Part shown: positions 4,566-52,771 of the stretch, piece by piece
Numbering within the stretch: the first letter of the stretch is position 1
Layout: each line of letters opens with the position of its first letter
Source of the DNA: an uncultured Phocaeicola sp.
GTDB lineage: Bacteria > Bacteroidota > Bacteroidia > Bacteroidales > Bacteroidaceae
Direction: 5' to 3'
Assembly: GCA_944321015.1 (NCBI GenBank)
Contig: CALUJS010000007.1
Span: 1 to 64,000, forward strand
DNA length: 64,000 bases
Translations under genes and position numbers: made by a program
The notes under the pieces: model-generated
The model's database searches: none
The model's input: the letters and a program-made list of their open reading frames with translations, nothing else
What the model was told of the DNA's origin: nothing

Positions 4566-4672
4566 GATATTCCGGCTCGTGAGCGTGCATATCCCCGCTC
4601 GTGAGCGCACATATGGATGCTCGTTTCTGTCCATATGCACGCTCGCGGGCGGGAATATCAAGGCGTGCCGGA
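4566..4672. repeat. 22-bp palindromic repeat array A (about 4.5 units)
   Basis: ATAT boxes recur at exact 22-bp intervals, with units starting at 4566, 4588, 4610, 4632 and 4654. Each unit has the form NATATnnn followed by a CGCTCGTGAGCG-like palindrome. It fills the gap between the barrel protein gene and the LysO pair. It belongs to the same family as arrays B to H. Confidence 0.9.
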
Positions 4673-8595: not shown

Positions 8596-8675
8596 GATAT
8601 GGACACGTTCGGGCCGCAATATGCGCGCTCGCGAGCGGGGATATGTTCGCTCGCGGGCGGCAATATGGAACGGAA
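8596..8675. repeat. 22-bp palindromic repeat array B (3-4 units)
   Basis: Units start at 8596, 8618, 8640 and 8662, exactly 22 bp apart. The second unit carries the perfect palindrome CGCTCGCGAGCG. It lies in the gap between rubredoxin and cydA. The remainder of the gap up to 8830 holds a TACATTTG -7 element (8792-8799) likely serving cydA. Confidence 0.9.
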
Positions 8676-12378: not shown

Positions 12379-12427
12379 GGAGGAGAAGGCACATTCTTCA
12401 CTCCCCGCATCCCGGCCTTTCATGCTC

Positions 12428-12506
12428 CATATTCCCGCTCGTGAGCGGCCATATCCTCGCTCGCGGGCGTTCATATTTCCGCTTGCGAGCCGTCATATGG
12501 AGGCTC
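12428..12506. repeat. 22-bp palindromic repeat array C (3.5 units)
   Basis: Units start at 12428, 12450, 12472 and 12494, each CATATnnn plus a CGCTCGTGAGCG- or CGCTTGCGAGC-like palindrome. This array lies between two divergent promoters (rnhB and the SusC operon), so it is not a terminator. Confidence 0.9.
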
Positions 12507-20092: not shown

Positions 20093-21178
20093 ATGAAAAA
20101 ACTAATCCTATCTTTACTGTCTGCGCTGTTCCTGCTTCCTGCAGCGGCACAGACCAACTTCCGCCACTTGACGCTCGACCAAGCCATCGAGCAGGCCAAG
20201 AAGGAAAACAAGCTGGTGTTCGTGGACTTTTATACCGACTGGTGCGGTCCTTGCCGCGTGATGGCCAACACCGTGTTCCCGCAGAAGAAAGTGGGCGACT
20301 ACTTCAATGCCCGCTTCGTCTGCATCAAGCTCAATGCCGAGAAAGAAGGCCAGGCGGATGCCAAGACCTTCCAAGTGAAGGCATATCCGACTTTCCTCGT
20401 GCTCGACACGGACAAGAAGGTGTTGCTTGACATCAAAGGCTCCATGACGGCCGAGAACTTCCTTTCGAAGATTGAGAGCGAACTGAACCCCGAGCTGTCG
20501 CCCGAAGCCATGAAGAAACGTTATGACGCCGGCGAGCGTACGCCCGACCTGGTCAATGCATACGCGTTCCATTTCATGGAGGAAGGCAAGGAGAGCGAAG
20601 GCTACCGCATTGTGAACGAATACTTTGACTCGCTCACCGACGCGCAACGCCTCGCCCCGGAGAACTATTTCCTTTTCCAGCGTTACACGCTTTCGCTGCA
20701 AGACCCGAAGGCCGATTTTCTGGTGTCTCACCGCGACGAATTCGACCCGGCCGTGCGTGACAAGGCCCGGGAACATGCCAACAAGCTCCATCACATGGGC
20801 TTGGTGAGCTACTTGTCAGGCTTTCAGTTTGCAAGCGGAAAGTATGACGCCGCCGCTTACGGCAAGTTGAAGCAGGAAATCATCGACCGTGGCCTGGACA
20901 AGACCTATCCTTACGCTCCGCTCTTCGACCTGATAGAGTGCTATGCCAAGGGTGACAAGGCTGCTTACTTCGCGCTGCTGAAGGAGAAGCAACCGCAGAT
21001 GGAGCCCGGCGATTTCAATCTGGTGTTGCTCAACTTCTCGCGCCTGTTCCCGTTGGACACGACCGACAAGGCGCTTCTGAAGGAAGCGGCCCGGTATATC
21101 CGCTCGCTTCTTCCCGGCCTGAAGCCGTCCACCATCATGATGATGGGGCAGCTCCTGCAAAGTCTGGAACAATCCTGA
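20093..21178 (+). CDS. Secreted thioredoxin-fold protein
   Basis: The 361-aa product has a signal peptide (residues 1-20, ending LPAAAQ) and a thioredoxin domain with the active site WCGPC (C51 and C54) and a cis-proline motif (VKAYPTFLVLD). A C-terminal helical region of about 210 aa follows, of unknown function. It probably acts as a periplasmic disulfide oxidoreductase serving products of the operon. It is the last gene, 24 bp after the PKD-like lipoprotein. Its GC content is markedly higher (34 of 60 at 20161-20220), so it seems to have a different history from the two genes before it. Confidence 0.93.
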   Translation: MKKLILSLLSALFLLPAAAQTNFRHLTLDQAIEQAKKENKLVFVDFYTDWCGPCRVMANTVFPQKKVGDYFNARFVCIKLNAEKEGQADAKTFQVKAYPTFLVLDTDKKVLLDIKGSMTAENFLSKIESELNPELSPEAMKKRYDAGERTPDLVNAYAFHFMEEGKESEGYRIVNEYFDSLTDAQRLAPENYFLFQRYTLSLQDPKADFLVSHRDEFDPAVRDKAREHANKLHHMGLVSYLSGFQFASGKYDAAAYGKLKQEIIDRGLDKTYPYAPLFDLIECYAKGDKAAYFALLKEKQPQMEPGDFNLVLLNFSRLFPLDTTDKALLKEAARYIRSLLPGLKPSTIMMMGQLLQSLEQS

Positions 21179-21261: not shown

Positions 21262-21413
21262 CCCTCCCAACCGGTGGTCAGACCTTTTGAAGCTCTCTAG
21301 GTATATTGTTCCCCGCCCCGCCTTCGACGACGCAAAAAAAACGGTCAGCAAGACACCGGCGGACAAATCCGCCCGAAACCTGATGGTTGATTGGTGAAGG
21401 AGGTTGATGGGGA

Positions 21414-21501
21414 GATATGGCCGCTCCCAAGCGGGCATATGTCGGCACGTGAGCGGGAATATGTACGCTCGCGAGCGCTCATATCTCCGCTCAGATACCG
21501 G
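21414..21501. repeat. 22-bp palindromic repeat array D (4 units)
   Basis: Units start at 21414, 21436, 21458 and 21480. The third has the full palindrome CGCTCGCGAGCG. It lies between the thioredoxin terminator and the tandem repeats next to the transposase. Confidence 0.9.
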
Positions 21502-21596: not shown

Positions 21597-22500
21597 GGAC
21601 GGTGAAGCCGTCCCACAATGCGTAACCGCTGTGTGGCGCGTGATGCGCCACCTGCGGATAGTCCCGCCTGTATGGTCGACCTTAAGGAGGTCGAACCCAA
21701 TCCGGCATTGCTACACGAAATCATTTGCAAGCCTGTCTTGATTCGACCTCTTCAAGGTCGTTTTCTCTTTCATCGCATTCCCGCAGGTGTCACTTGCCGT
21801 GCCACACAGCGGTTATCATAGTCAGACAGCTTCGCCGTCTTATCTCTCTTGATCGTTGCTTGAGAGCGACAGAAGGAAATCACGATTTGGTGTATGAAAG
21901 ATATCTTGTCCTGCCGTTGTTTGAAGGGACAGTGAAACTGTCCGACAAAGCTAACCGCTGTGTGGCGCGTGATGCGCCACCTGCGGATAGTCCCGCCTGT
22001 ATGGTCGACCTTAAGGAGGTCGAACCCAATCCGGCATTGCTACACGAAATCATTTGCAAGCCTGTCTTGATTCGACCTCTTCAAGGTCGTTTTCTCTTTC
22101 ATCGCATTCCCGCAGGTGTCACTTGCCGTGCCACACAGCGGTTATCATAGTCAGACAGCTTCGCCGTCTTATCTCTCTTGATCGTTGCTTGGGAGAGACA
22201 GAGGGAAATCACGATTTGGTTTATGAAGGATATCTTGTCCTGCCGTCGTTTGAAGGGACAGTGAAACTGTCCGACAAAGCTAACCGCTGTGTGGCGCGGA
22301 ATGCGCCACCTGCGGATAGTCCCGCCTGTATGGTCGACCTTAAGGAGGTCGAACCCAATCCGGCATTGCTACGCGGAATCATTTGCAAGCCTGTCTTGAT
22401 TCGACCTCTTCAAGGTCGTTCTCTCTTTCATCACATTCCCGCAGGTGTCACTTGTCGTGACACACAGCGGTTATTCGGTGTAAGGACGGTTTCACCGTCC
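21597..22500 (+). repeat. Three tandem 329-bp repeats bounded by REP-like palindromes
   Basis: A 191-bp core begins AACCGCTGTGTGGC and ends with its inverse (GCCACACAGCGGTT). It occurs at 21624-21814, 21953-22143 and 22282-22472, exactly 329 bp apart. The first two cores read as identical; the third has a few changes, some of which keep stems paired. Each core holds hairpins TGGCGC/GCGCCA, TCGACCT/AGGTCGA and CGACCT/AGGTCG. Linkers hold GGACAGTGAAACTGTCC. The whole block is flanked by GGACGGTGAAGCCGTCC (21597-21613) and GGACGGTTTCACCGTCC (22484-22500). Open frames across it follow the repeat and are not credible genes. Confidence 0.9.
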
Positions 22501-22637
22501 GCTTTAAGCGGAGAACCCTGCTTGTTCCGGCAGGAAGAGAAAGTGTTGCCGGACACCGATAAAAGAAAATATAATCATCCGCAACATTTTACCGGCGTTA
22601 ATAATTTCTTATATTTACCATCTCAAATGTTCTATTC

Positions 22638-23093
22638 ATGAGTTACACACGTTTATTGTATCACATTGTATTCCGTCCGCGAAGTAGCAGACCTGTAATA
22701 ACCATAGCATATGAGGAAATGTTATACCGTTACCTGTGGGGTTTTGTAAAAAACAAAGGAGGCGTTCTGTATCGCATAGGAGGAATGCCGGATCATGTAC
22801 ATATGTTGGTGCAGATACCACCCACTTTGGCCTTGTCTGATTTCATGCACGACCTTAAGTTGTCGGTAAACAAGTTCATGAGCGAACATACGGCAGAGTT
22901 CCCCGATTTTGAAGGATGGGGAAAATCCTATTGTGCCTTGACGTGTTCGGAGAGTGTGAAGGACTCCATAATAGAGTATATAAGGAATCAGAAAGACCAT
23001 CACAAACGAACCAGCTTTAGGGATGAATATTTGAAGCTGCTTCAGGAAAATGGCATAGCGGGTGTGGAGAGCAAATATTTGTTTGGAGAATAG
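22638..23093 (+). CDS. REP-associated (Y1, HUH) tyrosine transposase, IS200/IS605 TnpA-like
   Basis: The enzyme class nicks and joins single-stranded DNA at hairpins. The 151-aa product has the HUH motif in GGMPDHVHMLVQIPP (H53, H55) and a catalytic tyrosine Y114 in IIEYIRNQ, with the conserved Q118. Single-domain proteins of this size without a TnpB partner and beside palindromic repeats are typical of RAYTs, which spread REP sequences rather than themselves. The start at 22638 gives the family N-terminus (MSYTRLLYHIVFRPRSS). Another REP-like palindrome half follows the gene (23192-23206). No TnpB or typical IS ends are visible. It appears intact. Confidence 0.9.
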   Translation: MSYTRLLYHIVFRPRSSRPVITIAYEEMLYRYLWGFVKNKGGVLYRIGGMPDHVHMLVQIPPTLALSDFMHDLKLSVNKFMSEHTAEFPDFEGWGKSYCALTCSESVKDSIIEYIRNQKDHHKRTSFRDEYLKLLQENGIAGVESKYLFGE

Positions 23094-23191
23094 TCGGCAC
23101 TGTTCGACCTTTTTGAGGGCGTCCATCCGATTGGATTATCCGCACGCAGGTGATGCTTTCGTCTCATCTGCGTGCGGATATTGATTATGAT

Positions 23192-23206
23192 TCGGTTTCA
23201 CCGTCC
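23192..23206. repeat. REP-like palindrome downstream of the transposase
   Basis: CGGTTTCACCG with flanking bases matching GGACGGTTTCACCGTCC at 22484-22500. It is the same palindrome that borders the tandem repeats. Confidence 0.65.
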
Positions 23207-35202: not shown

Positions 35203-35213
35203 TTTTAACGGGG

Positions 35214-35300
35214 CATATGGAGGCTCGTGAGCGTGCATATGGCCGCTCGCGTCTGCGCATATGGACGCTTACGCCCGGGCATATGAAGGCGTAAGCGTCG
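35214..35300. repeat. 22-bp palindromic repeat array E (about 4 units)
   Basis: Units start at 35214, 35236, 35258 and 35280, each opening CATATG. It fills the gap between two convergent genes. Confidence 0.9.
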
Positions 35301-43559: not shown

Positions 43560-43660
43560 TTGACGGGCGCGAGCGTCCATATGGCGGGACGTGAGCGGAC
43601 ATATCCGCAGTCGCGGGCGGACATATGGACGCTCGCACGGGAACATATCGGCAGAGCGGA
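43560..43660. repeat. 22-bp palindromic repeat array F (about 4 units)
   Basis: Units start at 43578, 43600, 43622 and 43644, preceded by a partial unit GGGCGCGAGCGTC. It lies between the EEP gene and secDF. The rest of the 43470-44036 gap holds only a TATATTTG -7 element at 43972-43979, likely for secDF. Confidence 0.9.
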
Positions 43661-47386: not shown

Positions 47387-47474
47387 CATATTCCCGCTCG
47401 TGAGCGCAGATATGGACGCTCGCGAGCCTGGATATGGGCGCGTTCGGGCGGGAATATGCCGGCTCATCCCCCGG
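47387..47474. repeat. 22-bp palindromic repeat array G (4 units)
   Basis: Units start at 47387, 47409, 47431 and 47453. The second has a nearly full CGCTCGCGAGC palindrome. It lies between the divergent tRNA-Arg and korAB units. I see nothing further in the rest of the gap to about 47820. Confidence 0.9.
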
Positions 47475-52670: not shown

Positions 52671-52771
52671 TGTATTTGCGCCTTCGGGCGTCCATATGCC
52701 GGGACGTGAGCGGAGATATGGTCGCTTGCGAGCCGACATATGCACGCTCGCGAGCGGCAATATGGTGGCTG
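52671..52771. repeat. 22-bp palindromic repeat array H (about 4 units)
   Basis: Units start at 52693, 52715, 52737 and 52759, with a partial palindrome before them. The third unit has the full CGCTCGCGAGCG. It sits between the FecR and SusC genes. The rest of the gap to 52959 is AT-rich with GTTATTTG at 52865-52872, a weak -7 candidate. Confidence 0.9.

Follow-up and report, generated by a model that had tools for sequence, protein, structure and literature searches.

What ties a small transposase gene to the palindrome-rich repeats in front of it is the question raised by this locus of an uncultured Phocaeicola sp., which lies in the 64,000-nucleotide stretch of DNA analysed here (the window). 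An earlier note had read the pair as a REP/RAYT-like unit, that is, a Y1 transposase beside three tandem repeats. Positions 21597-22500 of the window hold three tandem units upstream of tnpA whose starts are 329 and 329 bp apart, the exact spacing that had been claimed (TRF: period 329, matches 96%, score 1614). Each 329-bp unit contains a quasi-palindromic element of ~245 bp, which is nearly identical to its reverse complement and runs, from the outside inward, through hairpins A, B and C, a short centre, and C', B' and A' (A-B-C...C'-B'-A'; Table 1). Hairpin B consists of a TAA foot followed by CCGCTGTGTGGCGC-loop-GCGCCACCTGCGG. The closed core described for each repeat is present in all units with a length of 193 bp rather than 191 bp (21623-21815, 21952-22144, 22281-22473), and the 14-bp inverse that closes it (TAACCGCTGTGTGG/CCACACAGCGGTTA) matches exactly in the first two units and is a base shorter in the third. 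The palindromes said to flank the block were recovered as GGACGGTGAAGCCGTCC (21597-21613) and GGACGGTTTCACCGTCC (22484-22500). The one said to follow tnpA is there too (CGGTTTCACCGTCC, 23193-23206); its outer left arm is lost, and it closes a diverged half-element (C'-B'-A', 23102-23206). With the array before it and this half-element after it, tnpA is thus bracketed by inverted arms.

Table 1. Features of the repeat array, the tnpA gene and neighbouring minisatellites, in window positions.
Feature	Position	Strand	Further positions	Remarks
Element copy 1, A-B-C...C'-B'-A' quasi-palindrome	21597-21842	+
Element copy 2	21927-22171	+		98% identity to copy 1
Element copy 3	22256-22500	+		~91-92% identity to copies 1 and 2
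Hairpin A, GGACGGTGAAGCCGTCC	21597-21613	.	21824-21840, 21927-21943, 22153-22169, 22256-22272, 22484-22500
Hairpin B with TAA foot, TAACCGCTGTGTGGCGC..GCGCCACCTGCGG	21623-21657	+	21952-21986, 22281-22315
Inverted hairpin B'	21781-21815	-	22110-22144, 22439-22473
Hairpin C, CGACCTTAAGGAGGTCG	21677-21693	+		Inverted partner C' at 21744-21760
tnpA, 151-aa Y1/HUH transposase	22638-23093	+		H53, H55, Y114; Y...Q..HH signature
Diverged C' motif, TTCGACCTTTTTGAGGGCGT	23102-23121	-
Diverged B'-type hairpin	23137-23180	-		Stem 17 bp, -17.6 kcal/mol
Remnant of palindrome A', CGGTTTCACCGTCC	23193-23206	-
22-bp-period minisatellites	4567-4614		8616-8667, 12427-12498, 21410-21492, 35213-35285, 43564-43628, 47395-47441, 52708-52770

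Dispersal of the core and palindromes beyond the locus had been set beforehand as a test of the REP-like reading, and it was observed: a BLAST search with one unit against the own genome, a draft of 2.97 Mb in 105 contigs with repeat clusters at contig ends, gave 126 matches. These represent about 40 elements, spread over about 20 contigs; 30 of the elements are full length and can be aligned end to end. Palindrome A occurs at 53 sites in this genome, compared with 1 for a reversed-pattern control, and is therefore far above chance. The elements take the form either of doublets (about 210-250 bp) or of singlets (C'-B'-A', about 100 bp), and tandem clusters are also found on contigs C24, C40 and C36. 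In essence, the unit is a composite, REPIN-like element with a genome-wide distribution rather than the three repeats of the earlier note. Most elements are intergenic. Among overlapping ORFs, the majority are short and made of the repeat itself, and a few longer ones overlap at one end. tnpA is present in a single copy. The three locus copies are ~91-98% alike, yet share no more than 73% identity with any dispersed copy (median identity between element copies in the genome, 72%), so the repeat family is old or diversified and recent spread from the locus is not evident. Congener comparisons yielded no clean empty site, and the empty-site search found no congener in which the thioredoxin gene adjoins the DUF3108 gene. 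In the nearest congener (G036), the flanks of one element (L045, 1942-2155) lie 1.9 kb apart, compared with about 0.6 kb in the own genome, and those of two others (L047, 2029-2196 and 10220-10462) are non-syntenic; these elements perhaps sit at rearrangement points, or the draft contigs mislead.

TnpA matches Pfam Y1_Tnp with 83 bits and the NCBIfam IS200 equivalog NF033573 with 71.5 bits, above its cut-off of 55, and scores 19.7 bits against REP_Tyr_transpos (NF047646), far below the cut-off of 80. The residues previously singled out, H53, H55 and Y114, are present and invariant across 14 aligned proteins, as are Q118, H121 and H122. The protein carries the motifs DHVH and YIRNQKDHH, the latter fitting Y...Q..HH, which the parts of Quentin et al. 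2018 (PMC6006769) drawn on here give as the signature of TnpA-Y1 subclass 1.2. These parts describe the subclass as proteins of about 148-150 aa in low copy number, mostly from Bacteroidetes and Cyanobacteria, generally without IS200 terminal structures and with the REP entry 'no'. With 151 aa, one gene copy and a Bacteroidota host, TnpA is, as judged by Y-motif signature, length and copy number, a member of subclass 1.2. Its AlphaFold model (pLDDT 87) is closest to the folds of ISDra2 and IS608 TnpA in the PDB, with the REP-bound TnpAREP structure 4ER8 at rank 30.

The score above the IS200 cut-off, the inverted arms around the gene and the half-element after it could all belong to an ordinary IS200-type insertion sequence, in which gene and arms would form the autonomous element and the dispersed repeats would be internally deleted, MITE- or PATE-like copies. 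HUH/Y1 fold, catalytic residues and, putatively, hairpin substrates are shared with IS200/IS605 elements such as IS608 and ISDra2. We nevertheless consider this explanation improbable. Genuine IS200 elements have subterminal hairpins at their ends rather than inverted multi-hairpin arrays, and here neither typical left and right ends nor an identical multicopy element was found, tnpA being single copy in its genome. pN/pS values of 0.08-0.29 between relatives, with synonymous sites saturated in more distant pairs, indicate strong purifying selection on tnpA, which sets this gene with its resident repeat population apart from IS200/IS605. Near-identical gene copies with conserved ends, as expected of such elements, were likewise missing where several tnpA genes share a genome: across seven such genomes most protein pairs are 22-57% identical (one pair in G650, 76%), and the flanks are mostly unrelated, with different palindromes.

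In two relatives searched with their own unit, the repeats are also largely private to the home genome. In a complete, one-contig genome (G082), the unit beside tnpA has 30 matches at more than 10 chromosomal places, often as inverted doublets; the same unit has no match in four of five other genomes and one 24-base match in the fifth (G262). The unit of another genome (G114) has 47 matches at home and 0 in five other genomes. Co-resident genes with their own palindromes are the RAYT-style pattern of one gene and one repeat family, unlike that of an insertion sequence.

Relatives of tnpA were detected in 29 of the 301 genomes of the family, with none in 14 congeneric species, and in 166 of 395 sampled Bacteroidota genomes (42%), at 1-9 copies per genome. 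The Y...Q..HH motif is present at 34 of 35 family loci and at all 29 phylum loci. For each gene, the 400 bases upstream were compared with the reverse-complemented 350 bases downstream and scored against 100 dinucleotide shuffles: the inverted repeats spanning the gene outdid every shuffle at 31 of the 35 family loci and, in an independent phylum-wide set, at 21 of 29, whereas none of 14 control loci did so; they were absent at the remaining 4 family and 8 phylum-wide loci. Given these counts, the 'no REPs' entry for subclass 1.2 looks wrong for Bacteroidota. The proteins agree with the subclass as characterised in the parts of PMC6006769 used here (Y...Q..HH, about 150 aa, low copy number, Bacteroidetes) and differ from that description in that most members examined here have inverted composite palindromes, dispersed where tested. 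In the literature searched, which included the main text of Quentin 2018, we found no earlier account of repeats belonging to this subclass.

Near relatives (at least 52% identity) mostly have the same hairpin B with a TAACCG foot in one or both flanks of the gene. Among the 301 genomes, the hairpin-B pattern is most frequent in the own genome (69), G206 (35), G184 (34) and G300 (11), all of which encode tnpA, and mostly occurs 0-5 times in the others; genomes without detected tnpA reach 9 (G083), 7 (G238) and 6 (G210). Since the flanks used to derive the pattern include genomes counted here, only the genome-wide counts, and not the flanks, are independent evidence. The own element itself was found in the own genome only, by a nucleotide search of the 301 genomes that is weak in that two candidates were scored per genome. 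G238 has a repeated B-like hairpin, TAACCGCTTGTGTTTTCGGACGAAACAGGGTTTGCGG (C13:65642-66124 and others), with no tnpA at E 1e-20, possibly an orphan repeat population.

A loop change in unit 3 that spares the stem had been offered as a sign of selection on structure. The change is real (GTGAT to GGAAT inside TGGCGC/GCGCCA), but as a lone event it carries little weight; much stronger evidence comes from covariation among 20 related hairpins. In these B hairpins, which come from different loci, were picked by eye as hairpins and were aligned at their ends, the four outer pairs are intact in 97.5% of cells, and three of the four have changed on both sides, that is, in a compensatory manner. The covariation score was reached by 0 of 500 shuffles and was lost when the register was slid. 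Choice by eye favours pairing as such, so it is the compensatory changes that carry the argument. Perfect stems of at least 7 bp are in about fivefold excess in the flanks relative to shuffled flanks, and the foot tally of the flanks has a modest excess of TAA/TAG; the automatic hairpin caller called many irrelevant hairpins. The foot is TAA in the own copies and TAA or TAG in those of relatives, and not GT[AG]G.

Stable, structurally constrained hairpins in mostly intergenic positions would also suit host regulation, as terminators, mRNA stabilisers or nucleoid sites, with the transposase as a bystander or using them as a landing site only. This we regard as very unlikely: the repeats follow tnpA and not the genus, the 14 congeners without tnpA being also without a detected element in the pattern counts and the same two-candidate nucleotide search; different tnpA genes go with different repeat families; and the repeats have no Rfam match at gathering thresholds. 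The reading as a canonical RAYT/REP unit (class 2 TnpAREP) that has reached a new host has next to no probability, even with the shared architecture of a single gene, flanking inverted palindromes and dispersed doublets, and the RAYT label was rejected on the REP_Tyr_transpos score, the class-1.2 rather than NP-type Y motif, the TAA/TAG foot and the best folds being those of IS608 and ISDra2.

What stands of the REP/RAYT-like reading is a single tnpA with dispersed, mostly intergenic repeats; what falls is the name RAYT. The locus is most probably a REPtron-like system in which a single-copy subclass 1.2 TnpA is paired with its own inverted composite repeats and a dispersed intergenic population. 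The features that mark RAYT systems, namely inverted flanking repeats, intergenic dispersal and one gene per repeat family, were all found. Shared with REPtrons and REPINs (E. coli TnpAREP, PMC8266576; REPINs, PMC3116915) are the single gene with its own flanking palindromes, the intergenic singlets and inverted doublets, the imperfect stem with a short conserved 5' foot, and one repeat family per gene; here, by contrast, the protein belongs to class 1.2 and not class 2, the foot is TAA/TAG and not GTAG, and the unit is made of two or three adjacent hairpins, with doublets of 210-250 bp. TIRYTs/TIRtrons, in the parts of Di Nocera et al. 2013 (PMC3733652) drawn on here, likewise combine a tyrosine transposase gene with long flanking inverted repeats, some of them doubly palindromic, and form moderately repeated families in dimers or clusters. 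TIRYTs are described there as RAYT-type proteins, with neither a class-1.2 protein nor a Bacteroidota example in those parts; at our locus the inverted arms are present and the RAYT model score is below the cut-off. The REP-like structures of subclass 2.6, according to the parts of Quentin et al. 2018 used here, also accompany Bacteroidetes genes and have atypical flanking hairpins copied elsewhere in the genome, but the proteins have NH[LIV]H and YIH[QN]NP where TnpA has DHVH and YIRNQKDHH.

Two adjoining hairpins, or three at our locus, make up the repeat unit, with a short palindrome (A or C) beside the longer imperfect B and its TAA foot (TAG elsewhere); such units are seen in REPIN-like manner as ~100-bp singlets or ~210-250-bp inverted doublets. 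As to mechanism, the substrate would be single-stranded DNA, probably exposed at replication forks. TnpAREP recognises a hairpin with a GTAG foot and cuts nearby (PMC8266576); by analogy, we infer binding, cleavage and mobilisation by TnpA. A TnpA dimer would bind hairpin B via foot and stem, with the TAA/TAG foot as guide, and Y114 would nick near hairpin B before rejoining or strand transfer. Such transfer could copy, move or tandemly expand units while the tnpA gene stays put, and A and C may act as a second recognition or stop element. This scheme would fit the inverted arms at tnpA together with the inverted doublets elsewhere.

We lean slightly towards the broader proposal that subclass 1.2 TnpA forms a REP-like partnership with composite two- or three-hairpin repeats. 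This partnership would have originated in class 1, the IS200 branch, separately from the class 2 RAYTs; it would be widespread in Bacteroidota and would use a TAA/TAG foot and a paired A+B unit for recognition. The pairing provides candidate substrates for a HUH transposase branch that had been described without repeats and whose relatives occur in the 166 Bacteroidota genomes noted above. Should it prove functional, Y1 transposases would have undergone REP-like domestication in class 1 as well as in class 2, and many unexplained intergenic palindromes of Bacteroidota would gain a likely maker. Why genomes keep RAYT-like enzymes becomes testable in a second lineage, with enzyme and cognate hairpin pairs at hand.

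Two further features were noticed. Minisatellites with a 22-bp period, a core of CGCTCGCGAGCG and ATAT/ATATG occur at eight places in the window (Table 1), one of them directly upstream of the REP-like array, and similar strings lie near elements on contigs L042, L045 and L055; judged by description and not by sequence, they are similar in type to the 'BrickBuilt' minisatellites known from Porphyromonas gingivalis (PMC4596501). Two similar thioredoxin-fold genes, at 20093-21178 of the window and at 827-1921 of L048, are both directly followed by REP-like elements and possibly arose by duplication through recombination between such elements.
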